From: Fibrobacter succinogenes
GTDB taxonomy: Bacteria; Fibrobacterota; Fibrobacteria; Fibrobacterales; Fibrobacteraceae
Length of the DNA stretch: 64,000 nucleotides
Direction: 5' to 3'
Assembly: GCA_902776765.1 (NCBI GenBank)
Contig: CACYRP010000027.1
Span: forward strand, 1-64,000
Under the pieces are notes generated by a model that saw nothing but the letters and a program-made list of their open reading frames with translations, was not told the origin of the DNA and ran no database searches. The position numbers and the translations under genes are program-made. Positions 46,046-58,833 of this stretch are shown in pieces (positions within the stretch are counted from its first letter, which is position 1; the number at the start of each line of letters is the position of its first letter).

Positions 46046-46447
46046 ATGGATTACGAATATAGCGTCATGGGTTCTATTTTCTGCAACGCAGACACACTTA
46101 CCGCCTCTGCGGATTCCGAATTTACGTACAAAAGCTACATTTTCGCACTCCGCAAATTAAACAATCGCATAAGCGTAAGCCTCCGCGGCCTTACAAGTAG
46201 CACTACCGACAGCATTCCAGATGCAGCGAGCGCAATCAACATCAGCACCATCTGTCAAAGTATCCCCGAAGCAGAAGTCACCGCCGTTTGCAAGTTCCTT
46301 TCTGAAAAATACGCCTGCAAAGCTTCCATGCGCAAAGGCTACGAAGTTTACGGCAACGCCAACGTTTTCAACGGTGGCTCCGACTACGAAGTTATCGAGG
46401 AAAAATGGTTTACCGTTGAATTCGACAACGGCATTCCAAAAAGCTAA
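46046..46447 (+). CDS. Hypothetical protein
   Basis: The start MDYEYSVMGSIFCNADTLTA at 46046 gives 133 residues. An earlier in-frame ATG at 45965 would place the TATCTT box and low-complexity boundary words inside the gene. The protein is a small alternating beta/alpha domain with a hydrophobic centre (AINISTICQSIPEAEVTAVC). No signal peptide or known motif is visible. Its stop overlaps the end of the convergent histidine kinase gene by 4 bp. Confidence 0.65.
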   Translation: MDYEYSVMGSIFCNADTLTASADSEFTYKSYIFALRKLNNRISVSLRGLTSSTTDSIPDAASAINISTICQSIPEAEVTAVCKFLSEKYACKASMRKGYEVYGNANVFNGGSDYEVIEEKWFTVEFDNGIPKS

Positions 46448-49400
46448 CGGAAGAATTTCGCAAGAGTCGCACAAAGCACTTCAACATCTACAGGCTTTGC
46501 CACGTGATCGTTCATGCCAGCATCCATTGCGGCTCGTTTATCTTCTTCAAACGCATTCGCTGTCATTGCAATAATCGGCACATTGGCAATATCGGGATTT
46601 TCCAACTTACGAATCTGGCGCGTAGCCTCGTAACCATCTATACCCGGCATCTGAATATCCATCAAAACGGCATCGTACTTGACTGTTGAATACTTGAGCT
46701 TTTCTACCGCAAGGTCTCCACGCTCCATCGCAGTCACTTCAACGCCTCGATCCTCAAGAATCTCTGTCGAAATTTCGCGGTTGAGTATGTTGTCTTCAAC
46801 AAGCATCACCTTTCGACCCGAAAAGTCGTATTTTTTAGGCTCATCCGATAACGATTCATAATCATGTCTCAAATCTGAAGAACTACCACAGAACTTCTGC
46901 AAAATGCTATGCAAATCCGACGGGAACAAAGGCTTTGCAAAGAACGATGTCACGCCTGCTTCAAGCGCTTCTTTCTCGATATCAATCCAATCGTACGAAG
47001 TCAGCACTACAACCGGTACAGCCATTCCAACAACTTTGCGGATTTGTCGCGTAATCTGAATACCCTTCATTTCAGGCATATTCCAGTCCACAAGAATCAA
47101 ACAATAATCATCGTTTGCTGCACGCGATTTTTCAATATAGGCAAGAGCCTCGTCGCCCGACATACACAAATCAAAACGCAAACCTTCTTTCTTTAACGCG
47201 GCATCTACAGTCCTACAAATTTTAGGACGATCGTTTATAATCAAGCAATGGACCCCTGCAAACTTTCCACTTGTCGCTAAAGCAACAGGCTTATTACAAA
47301 GCTTAAACTTAAAGGTCATGAAAACTTCCGTTCCCACCTGTTCTCGGCTCGAAATTTCAATGGTTCCACCCATCATATCCACTATATTCTTCGTGATGGA
47401 CATGCCAAGGCCAGTTCCCTGAATGCCGCTTACCGTCGAAGAATTCACACGGGTAAACGGTGCAAAAATTTGCTTCAAGAACTCTTCATTCATGCCGATA
47501 CCATTGTCTTTAACCATAAATTCATAAATGGCGTAACCCGGCTCAGCAGACACTTCCTTGATGTTCATCAAGACGATTCCCTTTTCGGGCGTGTACTTGA
47601 TTGCATTAGAAACAACATTCAACAAGACTTGATTCAGGCGCAATTTATCGCACATGATCATTTCATTATGAACATTTTCAAGTTCAACAACAAATTGCTG
47701 CCCACGAGTGCGAACATCCGAAAGAACAATTCCCTTTAGCGTATGGATCATATCCGAAAGACTTTCTGGACGATCCGTTATATTCATCTTTCCAGACTCA
47801 ATGCGGCTCATATCAAGAACATCATTGATGAGCGAAAGCAAATGTTCCGAAGAGCGACTGATTTTTGAAAGATAATCAATCACTTGTTCCTTATTGTCAA
47901 TATGCTCCGTTGCAAGTCCCGTAAAACCAATGATAGCGTTCATCGGTGTTCGAATATCATGGCTCATATTGTTGAGGAAGGTCGTCTTGGCGCGGCTTGC
48001 AGAATTAGCCATTAAAAGCGCTTTTTCCAAAGCCTCCTTATCTTTTTTCTGTTTGCGCGTTTCCTCATCAACGCTATGGAAACCCGCAACAATTTGCACC
48101 GGATTCGTCGCCGTCAGCACAAATTTAATTTGCCAATATTCAATATGCCCTAAAACATCTGCCTTGAAATTGACATAATAAGCATTTTTACTTTTGAGGT
48201 TTTCAAGAATTACATCTCTACGGGTGGACTTCAGGAACAATTCGTAATCGTCTTTACATACAAACTTTTCAACAATTACACCAAGACGTTCATTAAAGCC
48301 CTTAATTTTATCCCACTCCGGGAATACACGCGAGAAAAGATCTGTACAGCGGTAAACATTTTCACGCATAGAAACAGCATCAATATAGCACACCAAATCA
48401 AAATCTTCTGCAAGGCCCTGAATCACAGCCTGCTGCTGAATTTCCTTGCGCAAAACATCATCCTTATCGGCAAAACCAAGCGCCGCAAATTTCGGATGAT
48501 CCGAATCGCCCACTTTCACAAACTTCATTTCGCAATAGCGATTGAGGAAGTTCACGTACATGGTCTCAAAGCTCTTTCGTTTCGAAAGTTGCTCGCGAAT
48601 ATTCTTGATGGATCCGGCCTGGAGCATTCGATTCTTGTAAATGCCGCTCACAAACTTATCTACATAAACAGAATACGCCGCCGAATACTTGACATTGCGC
48701 TTGAACGTTTCGCCAAAAGAATTCGCAGTCGTCTTATTCATGGAATAAGGCGTGATTTCTTCTGTTTCGAGATTGATGTAATAAACCGATGTGTATTCAG
48801 CAGAAAGCGCTTCAATAATGGAAATATTGCGTTCCAGTTCTTCTTTCTGTTCTGCAATTTTCTTGTTCAGCTGAATCTTTTCGACGCGTTTCTTATCCAC
48901 AACAGAAAACGTCATAATGACAAGAGTCGCGACACCATTCCGACGTTCCACAACCTGCATTACAAAACTCAGCCAAGGATCATTAAAGCAAGAGGCCTTA
49001 AAGAGCAATTCACGACGGTCATCATGAGCCAGCAATCGTTGGATATACTGAGGACTAGCAAGACGGAGCCATTCATCCTTGTACTCGCTATCGACAAGTT
49101 GCACCATTCTGTAAGCACGATAAGAACAAGTGCTACGCTGCCTTTTATCGCCAAAATCAACTTTCTTCGATGGCAAAATTTCACGGGCGGTATCATTCGA
49201 CAAATCGCAAAGGAGAATGGCCTCGTATTCCGCCATAATTTTTTCATGCACAAAACGAGCACTGACTTCTTCATCGCGGTCAGCAAAAGCAACAACCATA
49301 GCCGTCGGCTCTTCGTTCACAGCATTGACCTTTACAAACTTCATTTCGCTGTAACGCACTTGTCCAGCGAGATTCGAACGAAAAAGAGCAACATACGTCT

Positions 49401-50943
49401 TATTATTTCTAAGGAAAGCCTTGATATTTTTAATATCGCCGGCCTCTAGCATTCTCTCTTTATCGGCATCATAAACAAAATCATGTACAAAATGCAAATA
49501 TGCATCATTATACTTTGTTCCATCTTTTAACATTGCACCGTAATAATGCCTTGACATCTCGTTCATGGAATACGGAATCACTTCATCCGTTAAAAGATTG
49601 ATATACATGACCGATGAATATTCTGACGCCAGCACATCGATAATCGAAAGGTTGACTTCCAATTCCTTTTTCTGGTATTCTAGCTTTTCGTTCATGCTAA
49701 GACGTTCAGATTGGTCCCTATCCACCGAAGTACTCGTCAACACGAGCGTTACCGGAACACCATCAATCCTATCAAGAACTCTAAATACACTTCGGCACCA
49801 AAAGAAAGATCCATCTTCAGTCAAATGCTTAAAGATCAACTCACGACTATCATCTTTTGCAAATAGTTGCTTTAGGTAATTGACATCACCCAATTTTTTC
49901 CATTGTTCATGATGATCTTTGTGAACAAAAGTCAGCGCATTGCTAAAGGCTTCACCATAACTATAAACTTCCTTAGCTTTATCAATCGTGTTATACTTAG
50001 ACTGGCGAACTACATGGACCAAAACTTCTTCAAGATCAATAAGGTAAATACTTGCAAATTCATCACGTACTTTTTCATTAATTTTTTGGGTAATGACTTC
50101 TTCATTTTTATTGACAAAACCCACCAAAAATTCGTTTTCTTCGCCAATGTCAAAACGCATCACGCGGACTTCGTACCAGCGAGCATACCCAAGCGCTACA
50201 TCACGGAACAAATAACGGAAGCTGTGTTCGTGAGAAAGGCGTTCAAGAATACGTTTCCTATCAAGACCTTCACGTATCATCTTACGATCGGCCGGATGGA
50301 TTACGTTCATTGCAACAAATTCACCTGTTCCTTCCAAGTTCCCTTCGAGCGGAAAAAAACCTTTAAGTTCTTCCTTGCAATAAAGCGTTCTAAACGTATT
50401 CCTTGTCGGATTAAAGACAAACACAGATTCCACTTGCTCGCCAAACTTCATGACAATGCTTTCGTTGAGATGGCGATCCAGTTCGTAGCGCTGTTTTGAA
50501 CGAATGTCACGGTCAACATTGCGCAGTCTCATCACAATCCCTTTAAGCACTTTGGATTCATCACGGTCAGCAAAGAAGCCCATTTGGAAATACACTTCTT
50601 TGCCGTCAATATCACACTTAAAAGGAACTACATACTGCGTTTTCTTTTCAAGATTTTCTAGAATAATTTCACGACGAGTACTTTTATAAAAAACTTCGCG
50701 ATCACTATCACAAACAAAATTATTGCAAAGAATATCCAAACGTTTATGGAAATTGCACTCACCCTGAAGAGCAGGAACACGAGTCACAAGAAACGGGCTT
50801 ATATGAAAGATTTCAACATCGTCATCTTCAGGATTTTTTTTCAAGTCAACGTAGCAAACACAATCATATTCATCCGCTATGGATTCAATGATTGCGTTAC
50901 CCTTCTCAATCCAAGACTGTTGGTTCAAATCTTTTCTTATCAT
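46444..50943 (-). CDS. Hybrid sensor histidine kinase with seven tandem PAS-like modules and two receiver domains
   Basis: The 1499-residue protein has no membrane helix. About seven PAS-like modules of 125-150 residues fill residues 1-980. The pairs at about 290-565 and 565-830 are copies of each other, and the first module resembles the last (KSTRREIILENLEKK versus KSTRRDVILENLKSK). Kinase motifs are complete: H-box MSHDIRTPMNAIIGF (His about 995), N-box VVSNAIKYTPEKG and G-boxes DNGIGM and GTGLGM. Two receivers follow, with aspartates at about 1284 (LVDWNMP) and 1427 (LMDIQMP). The output is unknown; phosphotransfer to a separate HPt is likely. A GATGGGG site precedes the ATG. Confidence 0.93.
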   Translation of the reverse strand: MIRKDLNQQSWIEKGNAIIESIADEYDCVCYVDLKKNPEDDDVEIFHISPFLVTRVPALQGECNFHKRLDILCNNFVCDSDREVFYKSTRREIILENLEKKTQYVVPFKCDIDGKEVYFQMGFFADRDESKVLKGIVMRLRNVDRDIRSKQRYELDRHLNESIVMKFGEQVESVFVFNPTRNTFRTLYCKEELKGFFPLEGNLEGTGEFVAMNVIHPADRKMIREGLDRKRILERLSHEHSFRYLFRDVALGYARWYEVRVMRFDIGEENEFLVGFVNKNEEVITQKINEKVRDEFASIYLIDLEEVLVHVVRQSKYNTIDKAKEVYSYGEAFSNALTFVHKDHHEQWKKLGDVNYLKQLFAKDDSRELIFKHLTEDGSFFWCRSVFRVLDRIDGVPVTLVLTSTSVDRDQSERLSMNEKLEYQKKELEVNLSIIDVLASEYSSVMYINLLTDEVIPYSMNEMSRHYYGAMLKDGTKYNDAYLHFVHDFVYDADKERMLEAGDIKNIKAFLRNNKTYVALFRSNLAGQVRYSEMKFVKVNAVNEEPTAMVVAFADRDEEVSARFVHEKIMAEYEAILLCDLSNDTAREILPSKKVDFGDKRQRSTCSYRAYRMVQLVDSEYKDEWLRLASPQYIQRLLAHDDRRELLFKASCFNDPWLSFVMQVVERRNGVATLVIMTFSVVDKKRVEKIQLNKKIAEQKEELERNISIIEALSAEYTSVYYINLETEEITPYSMNKTTANSFGETFKRNVKYSAAYSVYVDKFVSGIYKNRMLQAGSIKNIREQLSKRKSFETMYVNFLNRYCEMKFVKVGDSDHPKFAALGFADKDDVLRKEIQQQAVIQGLAEDFDLVCYIDAVSMRENVYRCTDLFSRVFPEWDKIKGFNERLGVIVEKFVCKDDYELFLKSTRRDVILENLKSKNAYYVNFKADVLGHIEYWQIKFVLTATNPVQIVAGFHSVDEETRKQKKDKEALEKALLMANSASRAKTTFLNNMSHDIRTPMNAIIGFTGLATEHIDNKEQVIDYLSKISRSSEHLLSLINDVLDMSRIESGKMNITDRPESLSDMIHTLKGIVLSDVRTRGQQFVVELENVHNEMIMCDKLRLNQVLLNVVSNAIKYTPEKGIVLMNIKEVSAEPGYAIYEFMVKDNGIGMNEEFLKQIFAPFTRVNSSTVSGIQGTGLGMSITKNIVDMMGGTIEISSREQVGTEVFMTFKFKLCNKPVALATSGKFAGVHCLIINDRPKICRTVDAALKKEGLRFDLCMSGDEALAYIEKSRAANDDYCLILVDWNMPEMKGIQITRQIRKVVGMAVPVVVLTSYDWIDIEKEALEAGVTSFFAKPLFPSDLHSILQKFCGSSSDLRHDYESLSDEPKKYDFSGRKVMLVEDNILNREISTEILEDRGVEVTAMERGDLAVEKLKYSTVKYDAVLMDIQMPGIDGYEATRQIRKLENPDIANVPIIAMTANAFEEDKRAAMDAGMNDHVAKPVDVEVLCATLAKFFR

Positions 50944-54099: not shown

Positions 54100-55476
54100 T
54101 TACCGATACTTCAATTCGGGATGAGCTTCGTAATATGCGTTCTTGAACGCGTACATGCGCTCATCAGCAAGACGCATGGCCTTACGAATATCCTTCTTGC
54201 CATAGCAAATGCCGATTGAGAAGCGAACATATTCTGTTTTTCCCGACAAGAAATGAACACGAGCAACACGATTTTGCAACTCATCTTCATCAATATCATT
54301 CACAAGAATCATGAACTCGTCGCCACCAGCACGGTAAACAACGCCATCGTGGAATACAGCTTGCAATATCGAAGCGGCTTCACGCAACATGCTGTCGCCT
54401 GCGCTATGTCCTTGTTCATCGTTCACACGCTTGAGACCATTCAAATCCACAAACAGCACGGCTTGCGGTACAGGTTCGCTACCTTCAACAATCAAGTCGA
54501 CACGATTATTCATTTCATTTCTATTCTTGACATTTGTCAAGGAATCAATCGTGCTCATGATTTCTAGCTTATTCATAAGCTGATAGCTAGCCACTTCAGA
54601 AGCAAGGAAGAACGTCGTAACTTCCAGAGTTTCCTTAATCTTTATGGCCTCGGCGACATTAAAATTAAGCACCCACATATAACCGAGATGCTGCTTGCCA
54701 TGTCGGAGAGCGAATAACACGACACTATGGGCGTTCGTCTGTTCAAGCGATGCAGCCCATAGCGGGTTTTGTTCCCGCAACTTTTCCATATCATGTTCAT
54801 CTTTCAGGATGAGGCACGTACTGCCATCCAATGTGTCCGGCCACGTTTTTACAATTTCATAAAAACCATCGATGAAGTTCGATAACGGGAGTACGCTCGA
54901 GCCAGGGCGAATCGATTCTGCAAAATTTGTACAAATTTTCTTTTCATTATCCACAAGCATAATGCAGCAATGATCAGAACCACAAATTTCACGGATATCT
55001 CCAATAACATCTTGGAACGCCTGCCTGATATCATCCGAGCCACGCAGTTTGATGCAAGCCTTCAGCACATCCGACGCCGTTTCTGCAGAAAGGTCTGCCA
55101 TCGCAGAAGAGTCTGCCTTGGGGGCGACGTCGTAGCAATAAAAGCAATAACCGATATTTTCTTTATCAGAATCCAGCGGTAACAAGAACATGTTAAGCCA
55201 CAGATTCATCATATAAAGATTCACATAAGCATGAATTGGCTTGCCTTCGCGCGCACAATGGTAGCAGTGATCTTCGAAATTCGGATTCTTCGGGAAACAA
55301 GCCTCGTAAGGGCAGCCCGGAACAAACGGCTGATGGGTCAGGGCTTCGATGTCGGCACAATGAGCCTTGTTACCAGCAACAACGCGAATATTCCCATACG
55401 ATCCATCAGGGAAATATTCAATAGATATAATACAAGCCTTACCTCTGTGGTCCGACAGTAATTGATCAAAATTCAT
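54100..55476 (-). CDS. Diguanylate cyclase (GGDEF) with Cys-rich sensor and GAF-like domain
   Basis: The 458-residue protein has a C-terminal GGDEF domain (about 300-450) with an intact active site (YRAGGDEFMILV), so it should make c-di-GMP. The N-terminus (about 1-110) contains clustered cysteines (CPYEACF and HCYHCAREG), suggesting a redox or metal sensor. A GAF-like segment (about 130-290) follows. No membrane helix is visible. It lies immediately downstream of the GH5-GT2 fusion on the same strand (216 bp gap) and has its own GGGAG site. It may supply c-di-GMP for envelope polysaccharide control. Confidence 0.88.
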   Translation of the reverse strand: MNFDQLLSDHRGKACIISIEYFPDGSYGNIRVVAGNKAHCADIEALTHQPFVPGCPYEACFPKNPNFEDHCYHCAREGKPIHAYVNLYMMNLWLNMFLLPLDSDKENIGYCFYCYDVAPKADSSAMADLSAETASDVLKACIKLRGSDDIRQAFQDVIGDIREICGSDHCCIMLVDNEKKICTNFAESIRPGSSVLPLSNFIDGFYEIVKTWPDTLDGSTCLILKDEHDMEKLREQNPLWAASLEQTNAHSVVLFALRHGKQHLGYMWVLNFNVAEAIKIKETLEVTTFFLASEVASYQLMNKLEIMSTIDSLTNVKNRNEMNNRVDLIVEGSEPVPQAVLFVDLNGLKRVNDEQGHSAGDSMLREAASILQAVFHDGVVYRAGGDEFMILVNDIDEDELQNRVARVHFLSGKTEYVRFSIGICYGKKDIRKAMRLADERMYAFKNAYYEAHPELKYR

Positions 55477-55692: not shown

Positions 55693-58600
55693 CTAAATTT
55701 TTATAATCCTTTGTCCAAGATTTTTCCAAAGATTGCCTAAGTAATCATCTCTTAGACGCAAACGCTGCGGTAAAGTCGGAGTGCGATCGTAAAGCATTTG
55801 CACATACTCATCTTTCTGCCCTGCAAAATCAAGAACCTCGACCGTATAAACGCTCGGAACTTTTGGATTATAAGAATGACGGATAGAGACAATCGCTCCC
55901 TTGATTTTCAAATCATAAGCTTCATTAGAGATTTCAAGAGCAACCGATTCTCCTAAATAAAGGACATCAACTTCATCCGTGAAAATATCGACAGAATGTT
56001 CCGTGAGCTTGGTCGTTACGCCTTCGACTTGTCGCCCATTGCTTTTGAAAAGCGTGATGAATTCGGCAGCAAACACTTTCACGTTTTCGCCATCGGAATC
56101 GCGGCCTATGCCAAGGAACAAACACATCGTCAAATAGTAAGTATTGCGGATCAGCCAGAACAGCACAGCCAAAATACCGATGTATTCAAACACCACCATC
56201 ATATACGTCATGCGCACAATTCCCGCAAGTGTCAGCACCAACAGAACAACAAACGGCATAAGGCTCCGCTTGTCAATAACGCGGCGAGTGCTCGACTTTT
56301 CTTTCTTGGTCACCTTGAATGTCGAAAGTGTAATTCCAAGCGATTCCTTGATAATCGGGAACAAGAGGAATGGCATCACGGAAGTCTCGTAAATACCGCT
56401 CCACTGCGCAGAAATCTTGCCTTGGCTCGTAATACGGAGCGCTATAATTTGTAACAAGTGCATCGGCAACCAGAAAAGAGCAAGGTCAATCAACGTGCAT
56501 TTAAAAATCGGGATGCAGAATACCGCAAACATCAACGGCGAAATCAAGTAAATCAAATTCTTGAGCGGCGAGAACCAATAAAGCACGGAACTCAAATAGC
56601 TCAACTTTTGCGAAACACTCAACTTGCGATTGCGCACAAATTTTAACTGTTTTGCCGTTGCAATCACGCCGCGCCCCCAACGGGTGCGCTGTTGCACATG
56701 TTCTTGGAACGAAGACGGAGCCACGCCCGAGGCTAAAGCCTCGGAAAGCCCAAGGCTCACATACCCCGCTGATTCAATCAGCATGCCCGTTGCAAAGTCC
56801 TCCGTGATAGACTTTGTATAAAATCCACCAATATCTTCGAGCGCCTTACGCGAAAGAATCGTATTGGAACCACCATAAATAACGCTGTTACTCGAAGTCT
56901 TTGCAGCTTCAATCACGTCATAAAAATAGTCCTGTTCATTCGGGACAATCCGTTCTGCAAAAAGATTATGCTGGAAGACATCGGGCGTGTAGAAACTTTG
57001 TGGAGTCTGGATAAAGCCAAGCGGACGACGGCGTTCTTCGGGCAAACTTGCATTGATGCGTTCGGCATCTATAAAATACGGAATCGTCTTGAGCAAGAAC
57101 TTGCGCTGCGGAATCATATCGGCATCAAATGTCACCACATACGGGGAATGGCTACGCGCAAGTGCAGCGTTCAAATTCCCTGCTTTAGCCCCTTCGTTAT
57201 CCGGGCGGTCAAAATAATTTACGCCAAGTTCCTCGGCAAGCACTCGCATTTCCGGGCGGCGGTGGTCATCACACAAGTAAATATGGACTTTCGATTTGTC
57301 CGGGTATTCCATGAACTTGCAGCCAATAATCGTCTTGCGCAAAAGTTCTACTGGTTCATTGTACGTCGAAATGAATATATCGACATCAGGAAAATCTTCA
57401 TCTGCAATTTCGGGCAACGGATGATCACGCAACTTGAGCATGCCACTGTAATGAATGAGCGATTCTCCAAAGCCCAAAATTTCAACTACGAGCAACACAA
57501 TACTACCAACAACGGCAATCCAACCATACGCAAACGGAATAGAACACGCCACGCGCCAGCAAAGGTAAACTAGCGTGCAAAACGTACTCAAGAAGAGGAA
57601 TAAATCCCCTAAAATAACTTTTCCCGGCTTGGCATTAAACTGTTTCGCCGCAGCGCTATCGCTATATTTGAGCAAGTCATCATACGTATAAATTCTTTTA
57701 TCCTTAAAACGTTTTTGGAACTTAAGAATTACAAATACAATGATAAGAACGGCAAACACAGGTACCGCAAAGATAACCCAGACCATGTAGGGTTCCGTTC
57801 GCGCTAGAATCTTGAAATTCGATGCCGGGCTATAAACAAGCGAAATTTCATCGACATTCTGCCCTTGAAAAAGCGCCCTCGCAAATTGCCCCGAAAGCGT
57901 CAAATCATCATCCGTCAACGATTCCACTGCTCGGGAATCGTCCTTGATCATTGCAGATTCTTCTTCCTTGTTCGAAAGGCTCCAAACCGTATAGCTCAAG
58001 TGCAAGGAATCGAGTAAGGCGTACCAGAGCTTTGCACTTTCAAAGTCAATTTTTCCATCGCCCGATTCTTCGCTGAGGCCACTTTCAGAAATAAAAATTG
58101 GCGTTCCTTGACGAATAACATCGCGAAGCTTCGTACGGAAATCATCCTTGTGCGACGAAACGTAGAAATGGAACGAGTACATGACGTTACCAAAGTTCAC
58201 CGGGTCCTTTGCCGGAAACTGGATTTCGCGAGAATAGTTCGGCGTACCGATAAGGATTAACGCATCGGGATTGCACCTGCGGATTACGGGAATGATGAGG
58301 CTTGCATATTCCTTGATATCTTCCCAAGTGCAGTCTCCATTTGGCTCATTGCAAATTTCAAAAATCACGTTCGGGACATTCGCATACTCCTTCGCCATCT
58401 GGTTGAAAAAATTTATCGCTTCGGCGAGATTCTCGTTCGGGTTATTGTCTTTGAGAATGTGCCAGTCCACAATCACATACATATCGTTTGCGATAGCATA
58501 TTCAACACCCTTGCGCAAAATTTCGAGATTCTTTTTGCGGTCGCCATGCACATAGTCATCCGAATACATCGCAAGGCGAATGAGGTTCGTATTCCATTCC

Positions 58601-58833
58601 GTACTAAGTTGCTTGAAAAGGCCGTTATTAACGTATTTCGGGAACCATGTAAGCCCGTGAGTGCTCGCGCCCTTGAGCACAACCATTTTTCCGTGTTCAT
58701 CGTGAAGCTCCGTCCCTACGACATGAAGCTTACCGCTCGTCGAAGGCCTTGCAGTAAAGTTCACCGCCGCAAATGACGGGGTCAAAAAAGCAAGCAACAA
58801 TGCCGCCCCAAAAAAGAGTTTCCATATACACAT
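55693..58833 (-). CDS. Fusion of a GH5 cellulase domain with a cellulose-synthase-like GT2 and a degenerate PilZ domain
   Basis: The 1046-residue protein starts with a signal peptide (1-22). A GH5 domain (about 30-325) has both catalytic glutamates: E163 in the NEP motif (FEICNEPNGD) and E250 in PIFISESGLS. A membrane helix (about 350-370) and two more (about 408-455) follow. The BcsA-like GT2 domain (about 480-740) has DD at 522-523, DAD at 570-572, TED at 677-679 and QRTRW at 715-719, then four to five helices. The end (about 950-1040) looks like PilZ, but the RxxxR and DxSxxG c-di-GMP motifs are not intact. Synthase and hydrolase are thus in one chain. The product could be cellulose or another beta-glucan or mannan. 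Confidence 0.92.
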   Translation of the reverse strand: MCIWKLFFGAALLLAFLTPSFAAVNFTARPSTSGKLHVVGTELHDEHGKMVVLKGASTHGLTWFPKYVNNGLFKQLSTEWNTNLIRLAMYSDDYVHGDRKKNLEILRKGVEYAIANDMYVIVDWHILKDNNPNENLAEAINFFNQMAKEYANVPNVIFEICNEPNGDCTWEDIKEYASLIIPVIRRCNPDALILIGTPNYSREIQFPAKDPVNFGNVMYSFHFYVSSHKDDFRTKLRDVIRQGTPIFISESGLSEESGDGKIDFESAKLWYALLDSLHLSYTVWSLSNKEEESAMIKDDSRAVESLTDDDLTLSGQFARALFQGQNVDEISLVYSPASNFKILARTEPYMVWVIFAVPVFAVLIIVFVILKFQKRFKDKRIYTYDDLLKYSDSAAAKQFNAKPGKVILGDLFLFLSTFCTLVYLCWRVACSIPFAYGWIAVVGSIVLLVVEILGFGESLIHYSGMLKLRDHPLPEIADEDFPDVDIFISTYNEPVELLRKTIIGCKFMEYPDKSKVHIYLCDDHRRPEMRVLAEELGVNYFDRPDNEGAKAGNLNAALARSHSPYVVTFDADMIPQRKFLLKTIPYFIDAERINASLPEERRRPLGFIQTPQSFYTPDVFQHNLFAERIVPNEQDYFYDVIEAAKTSSNSVIYGGSNTILSRKALEDIGGFYTKSITEDFATGMLIESAGYVSLGLSEALASGVAPSSFQEHVQQRTRWGRGVIATAKQLKFVRNRKLSVSQKLSYLSSVLYWFSPLKNLIYLISPLMFAVFCIPIFKCTLIDLALFWLPMHLLQIIALRITSQGKISAQWSGIYETSVMPFLLFPIIKESLGITLSTFKVTKKEKSSTRRVIDKRSLMPFVVLLVLTLAGIVRMTYMMVVFEYIGILAVLFWLIRNTYYLTMCLFLGIGRDSDGENVKVFAAEFITLFKSNGRQVEGVTTKLTEHSVDIFTDEVDVLYLGESVALEISNEAYDLKIKGAIVSIRHSYNPKVPSVYTVEVLDFAGQKDEYVQMLYDRTPTLPQRLRLRDDYLGNLWKNLGQRIIKI

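Follow-up and report, generated by a model that had tools for sequence, protein, structure and literature searches.

The locus studied here lies in DNA of a rumen Fibrobacter, of which a stretch of 64,000 nucleotides was analysed (the window). A single uninterrupted reading frame on its minus strand, beginning with ATG, encodes a protein of 1046 amino acids in which a glycoside hydrolase of family GH5 precedes a BcsA-like glycosyltransferase of family GT2 (Table 1). In a Pfam search, residues 45-289 matched Cellulase (PF00150, E 2e-57) and residues 482-772 matched several GT2 models. Hydropathy gave the order signal peptide, GH5, a helix at about 351-369, two helices, GT2, four helices and a C-terminal domain. 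The preliminary description of this DNA had proposed a single-chain GH5-GT2 membrane protein, and the 1046-codon frame, the Pfam matches to both domains and the existence of full-length homologues bear this out. An AlphaFold model of the protein (mean pLDDT 82; pTM 0.64, a value at which the orientation of the domains is uncertain) has strands alternating with helices in the GH5 region, a GT2 surrounded by helix bundles and, at the C-terminus, a domain of six strands. Foldseek searches with this model returned BcsA structures first (9b8v, 4p00, 4hg6) and Cel5A next, and the folds predicted by the model are a Cel5A-like domain, a BcsA-like domain and a PilZ-like barrel.

Table 1. Features of the fusion gene and its neighbour, with positions in the window.
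Feature	Coordinates	Strand	Basis
GH5_2-TM-GT2-PilZ-like fusion gene, 1046 aa	55693..58833	-	one open frame; full-length homologues in many genomes
Signal peptide, residues 1-23 (approximate)	58765..58833	-	hydrophobic segment 6-24, then SFAA; low pLDDT at 16-24 in the model
GH5_2 endo-beta-1,4-glucanase domain, residues 31-325	57859..58743	-	PF00150 E 2e-57; Cel5A-type structures nearest; 8 invariants
E163, predicted GH5 acid/base	58345..58347	-	NEP motif at 162; E in 33/33 fused proteins
E250, predicted GH5 nucleophile	58084..58086	-	E in 33/33 fused proteins; following residue S/C, not W
Additional transmembrane helix between GH5 and the synthase core, residues 348-377	57703..57792	-	hydropathy 351-369; model helix 348-377
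BcsA-like GT2 synthase with channel helices, residues 404-909	56107..57624	-	phmmer to BcsA 4hg6/7lby; Foldseek top match BcsA
DAD motif, residues 570-572	57118..57126	-	sequence and alignment of fused proteins
TED motif, residues 677-679	56797..56805	-	sequence and alignment of fused proteins
QRTRW motif, residues 715-719	56677..56691	-	sequence and alignment of fused proteins
PilZ-like beta-barrel, residues 920-1046	55696..56076	-	six model strands at 925-1002; RxxxR and [DN]xSxxG absent
Neighbouring GGDEF gene, judged outside the system	54100..55476	-	same locus without fusion in eight genomes

All eight GH5 invariants (R86, H125, N162, E163, H222, Y224, E250 and W284) are conserved in the fused proteins. 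After the nucleophile, the fused proteins have S or C where the GH5 relatives encoded by adjacent genes have W. The closest PDB matches of the GH5 domain, by sequence and by fold, are Cel5A-type endoglucanases, fitting GH5 subfamily 2; against 1a3h (Cel5A), Foldseek gave a TM-score by target of 0.95 and an rmsd of 1.5. Since GH5_2 members are for the most part plain endo-beta-1,4-glucanases (PMC3526467), a product containing beta-1,4 linkages is likely. The synthase motifs D, DxD, TED and Q(Q/R)xRW are all present in the fusion GT2, with DAD at 570, TED at 677 and QRTRW at 715, and both GH5 glutamates lie where the preliminary description had placed them. The FFCGS motif of BcsA is replaced by IYGGS, a change that may mean that donor or acceptor handling differs from that of BcsA. 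The NCBIfam model CelA/TIGR03030, the BcsA/CelA equivalog, aligns at residues 411-950 with 349 bits, under its curated cut-off of 699 bits.

Comparison of close pairs gave dN/dS values of 0.00-0.18 for the GH5 domain, 0.04-0.10 for the GT2 and 0.06-0.19 for the C-terminal barrel, and in most of these pairs the linker was less constrained than the enzyme domains. All domains are under purifying selection. Compared with its homologue in L160, the gene in the window has a synonymous divergence of 0.15 in the GH5 part and 0.62 in the GT2 part, an unevenness that suggests recombination inside the fusion gene between Fibrobacter lineages.

Of 80 Fibrobacter genomes, 23 have the GH5-GT2 architecture (14 of the 40 of high quality); it also occurs in three rumen Treponema and in nine Bacillota. 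Identity to these homologues is about 70-96% within Fibrobacter, and for two Treponema isolates from the rumen, sp. C6A8 and JC4, it is 72-73%. Matches from Lachnospiraceae, from Eubacteriales and from a single Oscillospirales genome are 49-52% identical over the whole protein, or 54-59% over the GT2 part. Two doubts that had been attached to the original proposal, a sequencing frameshift joining two genes and an architecture missing from relatives, are thereby removed: full-length open homologues from numerous independent assemblies, spanning three phyla, rule out a frameshift or assembly artefact. About 70% of the Fibrobacter genomes have no fusion gene and some have a decayed one, indicating that it is dispensable. 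We also noticed a GT2-only second copy of 444 amino acids in genome G014 (L120:8388-9722), a remnant retaining both ends of the gene in G022 (L121:8399-8860), a frameshift near residue 100 in the Treponema JC4 copy (L031:7995-11140) and a gene broken into three pieces in Treponema RUI115 (L041:7920-10649). A search of the plasmid database PLSDB returned only GT2 relatives of less than 60% identity, and the two inspected (Levilactobacillus and Enterococcus) have no annotated glucanase neighbour.

In a tree of GT2 domains the GH5-fused proteins formed a single clade (support 100/100), and in the GH5 tree the fused domains were likewise monophyletic (100/99), indicating that both halves travelled together. 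One fragment in the fused clade, labelled 'none' (L165), is a fused gene truncated by the end of its contig. Within the fused GT2 clade, Bacillota form one branch and Fibrobacter together with Treponema the other; Treponema is nested inside Fibrobacter in the GT2 tree and is its sister in the GH5 tree. Because two of the Treponema carriers are isolates of another phylum, transfer between phyla is indicated. The sister of the fused clade in the GT2 tree (100/99) is a Ruminococcus synthase in which GH44 (PF12891, E 5e-38) replaces GH5. It is known from one Ruminococcus MAG, with its N-terminus cut at a contig edge, and L043:2-3739 and L130:10422-14159 are the same gene. Two unrelated endoglucanases, GH5_2 and GH44, have been joined to this one synthase lineage.

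The more distant GT2 relatives are unfused. A GH5_2-like gene lies upstream of the synthase in three of them (L111, L112, L132) and downstream in two (L100, L176), and a GH5_4-type gene lies directly downstream in L099. Together, the GH44 fusion of the sister lineage and this GH5_4-type neighbour indicate that the clade has repeatedly been coupled to endo-beta-1,4-glucanases. In the GH5 tree, the enzymes encoded by adjacent genes come out as sister to the fused GH5 domains (98/97), which supports an operon-to-fusion route with changes of partner. MBOAT, DHHW/AlgX-like, CotH and DUF4956 genes found in the vicinity of L099 make this locus resemble the clostridial ccs locus (PMC7710045). More generally, the Lachnospirales synthases of L097-L100 cluster with CotH kinase, DUF4956, MBOAT and AlgX/DHHW-like genes and are possible acetylated-glucan loci related to ccs. 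Another cluster (L102, L103, L105-L110 and L191:4923-9835) combines a GtrA-type GT2 with a BcsA-like GT2 and with a membrane protein, about 600 amino acids long, that has no Pfam match, often with GGDEF genes present; a similar trio is carried by the conjugative plasmid pKB290-1 of Levilactobacillus brevis.

By hydropathy estimate, unfused synthase cores have, in the clearest cases, two helices ahead of the GT2; the GH5 fusions have one more than this and the GH44 fusion has five more. An odd number of added helices is what would keep the GT2 inside while the hydrolase lies outside. The GH5 domain is predicted, from hydropathy and the model, to lie outside the cytoplasm and to be linked by a transmembrane segment to a cytoplasmic GT2, in agreement with the earlier placement of GH5 on the periplasmic side.

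The PilZ-like end had been described as having lost its c-di-GMP motifs, and RxxxR and [D/N]xSxxG are indeed absent from it. None of 32 readable GH5 fusions has the pair, and every one of the 18 unfused relatives whose PilZ domain could be read has it: 16 without an adjacent GH5_2 gene and both relatives with GH5 downstream. A lone regular-expression match in L126 falls outside the motif position. The GH44 fusion likewise has neither motif, and in the relatives with GH5 upstream either the motifs or the PilZ domain itself are missing. Loss of the c-di-GMP switch, whether once or a few times, therefore accompanies direct coupling of the synthase to a glucanase at its N-terminus or upstream of it.

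The GGDEF gene beside the fusion exists as first described; its relevance to the fusion does not stand. In eight Fibrobacter genomes this locus is present but lacks the fusion, the order being lipoprotein-like/tm122 (where present), GGDEF, and DinB or UbiA; two of the eight (G483 and G027) have the fusion at another place in the genome. It follows that the GGDEF gene was long established at this site and that its presence is no evidence of regulation; a functional link between the two genes was rejected. Fusion and GGDEF gene adjoin each other in one Fibrobacter sublineage only. There is no conserved operon around the fused gene: its flanks differ among Fibrobacter sublineages, Treponema and Bacillota, and the neighbours identified (aconitase, TrkH, transketolase, HD domain, OmpA) are unrelated. 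The reported lack of bcsB and bcsC partners holds well beyond this locus, as BcsB was found in none of the 80 Fibrobacter genomes and no BcsC match in them reached the Pfam cut-off; a Pfam scan of window neighbours of the fusion gave no match to MBOAT/DHHW acetylation genes. Elsewhere in the window, 46444-50943 encodes a hybrid histidine kinase/response regulator of 1499 aa whose sensory segments are repeated; a DinB-type polymerase gene lies nearby, and the pair is conserved in several relatives.

The reading that we favour, at slightly better than even odds (roughly 0.55), is that the protein is a stand-alone, c-di-GMP-independent processive synthase of a beta-1,4-type glucan that would cut its own emerging chain. 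By homology to BcsA, the cytoplasmic GT2 would polymerise UDP-glucose and thread the chain through its own channel, and the GH5_2 domain, held just outside the cytoplasmic membrane on one extra helix, would cut the chain as it emerges. Cutting would limit chain length and release the synthase, so that GH5 would perform in cis the task of BcsZ or CcsZ in trans. The likeliest product would be a beta-1,4-type glucan, short or soluble, set free beyond the cytoplasmic membrane; for Fibrobacter this would be the periplasm. The donor sugar, the linkage, self-cutting and the location and role of the product are what we infer here. The probable ancestor of the gene is a synthase operon of clostridial type in which the glucanase had its own gene; both the c-di-GMP switch and the accessory genes would have been lost, and the lone gene would have moved between gut phyla. 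We are more tentative, at somewhat less than even odds, about the wider proposal of a horizontally mobile one-gene synthesise-and-cut machine that bypasses c-di-GMP and converts UDP-glucose to soluble cello-oligosaccharides or short glucan within a cellulose-degrading gut community. Counted against a self-cutting synthase are the replacement of FFCGS by IYGGS, the S or C after the GH5 nucleophile, the pTM of 0.64 and the patchy, decaying distribution of the gene; in addition, the GH5 domain could act mainly on imported plant cellodextrins.

The label 'cellulose' may itself be too specific, by analogy with Bacillota BcsA-like GT2s, which include a (1,3;1,4)-beta-glucan synthase (PMC10374906). 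On this alternative, which we regard as unlikely, the product is mixed-linkage (1,3;1,4)-beta-glucan or another beta-glycan and the synthesise-and-cut logic is unchanged. It is suggested by Romboutsia RiGT2, a BcsA-like GT2-PilZ protein whose product is (1,3;1,4)-beta-glucan and which does not depend on c-di-GMP (PMC10374906), by the IYGGS motif, and by the fact that bacterial relatives of the fusion are largely uncharacterised. However, any specific relationship between RiGT2 and the fusion would be conjectural, and the partner hydrolases found all come from families known mainly as endo-beta-1,4-glucanases.

We give still less credence to the possibility that the GH5 domain, instead of cutting the chain, remodels it by transglycosylation or cyclisation, giving a periplasmic cyclic or branched glucan, as proposed for the GH17 domain of the pseudomonad GH17-GT2 proteins. 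GH5 is a retaining family, which counts for this idea. With no BcsC match over the cut-off, the product may stay periplasmic, and the clade-specific change from W to S or C beside the nucleophile may alter acceptor use; domain order and topology are shared with the GH17-GT2 'Orphan'/NdvB proteins (PMC10237404). The prevalence of plain endo-beta-1,4-glucanases in GH5_2 (PMC3526467) argues the other way, as do the hydrolysis to which the GH44 and GH5_4 partners of relatives point and the occurrence of the fusion in Clostridia, which have no Gram-negative periplasm. Finally, the GH5 domain might be a membrane-anchored cellulase for imported plant cellodextrins, its attachment to a synthase being incidental. 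The host genus does degrade cellulose and has many GH5 enzymes (PMC3079729), and the gene is patchy and sometimes decayed. Nevertheless, the same GH5 lineage adjoins the synthase as a separate gene in relatives, the sister synthase is fused to GH44 and both halves are together under purifying selection, and we judge an incidental attachment to be very improbable.

Cellulose synthases and endoglucanases are normally separate proteins (BcsZ, CcsZ, plant KORRIGAN), and the contact between them is hard to study; the endoglucanase requirement of cellulose synthases is a long-standing question. The fusion fixes both enzymes 1:1 in one chain, so that GH5-dead and GT2-dead mutants of a single protein could reveal the effect of cutting on synthesis, chain length and release, and the GH5-fused, GH44-fused and adjacent-gene forms provide a natural comparison set. 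The fusion is also tied to the loss of c-di-GMP control. A glucan-making gene, its function being read from sequence, is a surprising find in a cellulose degrader.

Among the open-licence papers searched, we found no description of a GH5-GT2 or GT2-GH5 fusion. The protein shares with BcsA of the Bcs system the GT2 fold, the DAD, TED and Q(R)xRW motifs, the FxVTxK gating-loop motif, a PilZ-like end and an accompanying glucanase. In Bcs, however, that glucanase is BcsZ, a separate GH8 protein, whereas the hydrolase of the fusion is a GH5_2 domain in cis; the fusion has no BcsB and no BcsC over the cut-off, has lost the c-di-GMP motifs and carries IYGGS for FFCGS. Like RiGT2, it is of a stand-alone BcsA-like GT2-PilZ type with no clustered bcsB, but RiGT2 has the c-di-GMP motifs in its sequence and no fused hydrolase has been reported for it (PMC10374906). 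Fusions are known among cellulose-operon components of Zymomonas, BcsAB and BcsZC (PMC7112194), neither of which joins a hydrolase to a synthase.

The GH5 domain resembles Bacillus Cel5A (GH5_2), to which it is about 40% identical with all invariants retained; Cel5A-type enzymes are soluble and secreted, whereas the fusion domain is predicted to be membrane-tethered. An origin from CcsZ (GH5_25) was rejected, as Cel5A structures match the domain at 3e-67 or better and 6uje, a 320-aa endoglucanase structure that we take to be CcsZ, at only 4e-9. The clostridial locus ccsZABHI nevertheless offers a likeness, in that a BcsA-like GT2-PilZ synthase is partnered with a GH5 endoglucanase; CcsZ is a separate GH5_25 protein (PMC7710045), and the fusion holds GH5_2 in the same chain. 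MBOAT and DHHW genes occur in the ccs locus and beside the unfused relative L099 and were not found beside the fusion. The closest described architecture is that of the pseudomonad GH17-GT2 'Orphan'/NdvB proteins, in which an N-terminal extracytoplasmic hydrolase, membrane helices and a BcsA-like cytoplasmic GT2 form one chain (PMC10237404). Domain order, predicted topology and the lack of RxxxR are common to both; the GT2 motifs and the phyla differ, and in place of a GH17 glucanosyltransferase with a proposed cyclic beta-1,3-glucan product (PMC10237404) the fusion has a GH5_2 endo-beta-1,4-glucanase domain. The nearest precedents of the GH5-GT2 fusion are thus the 'Orphan'/NdvB proteins and clostridial CcsZ/CcsA.
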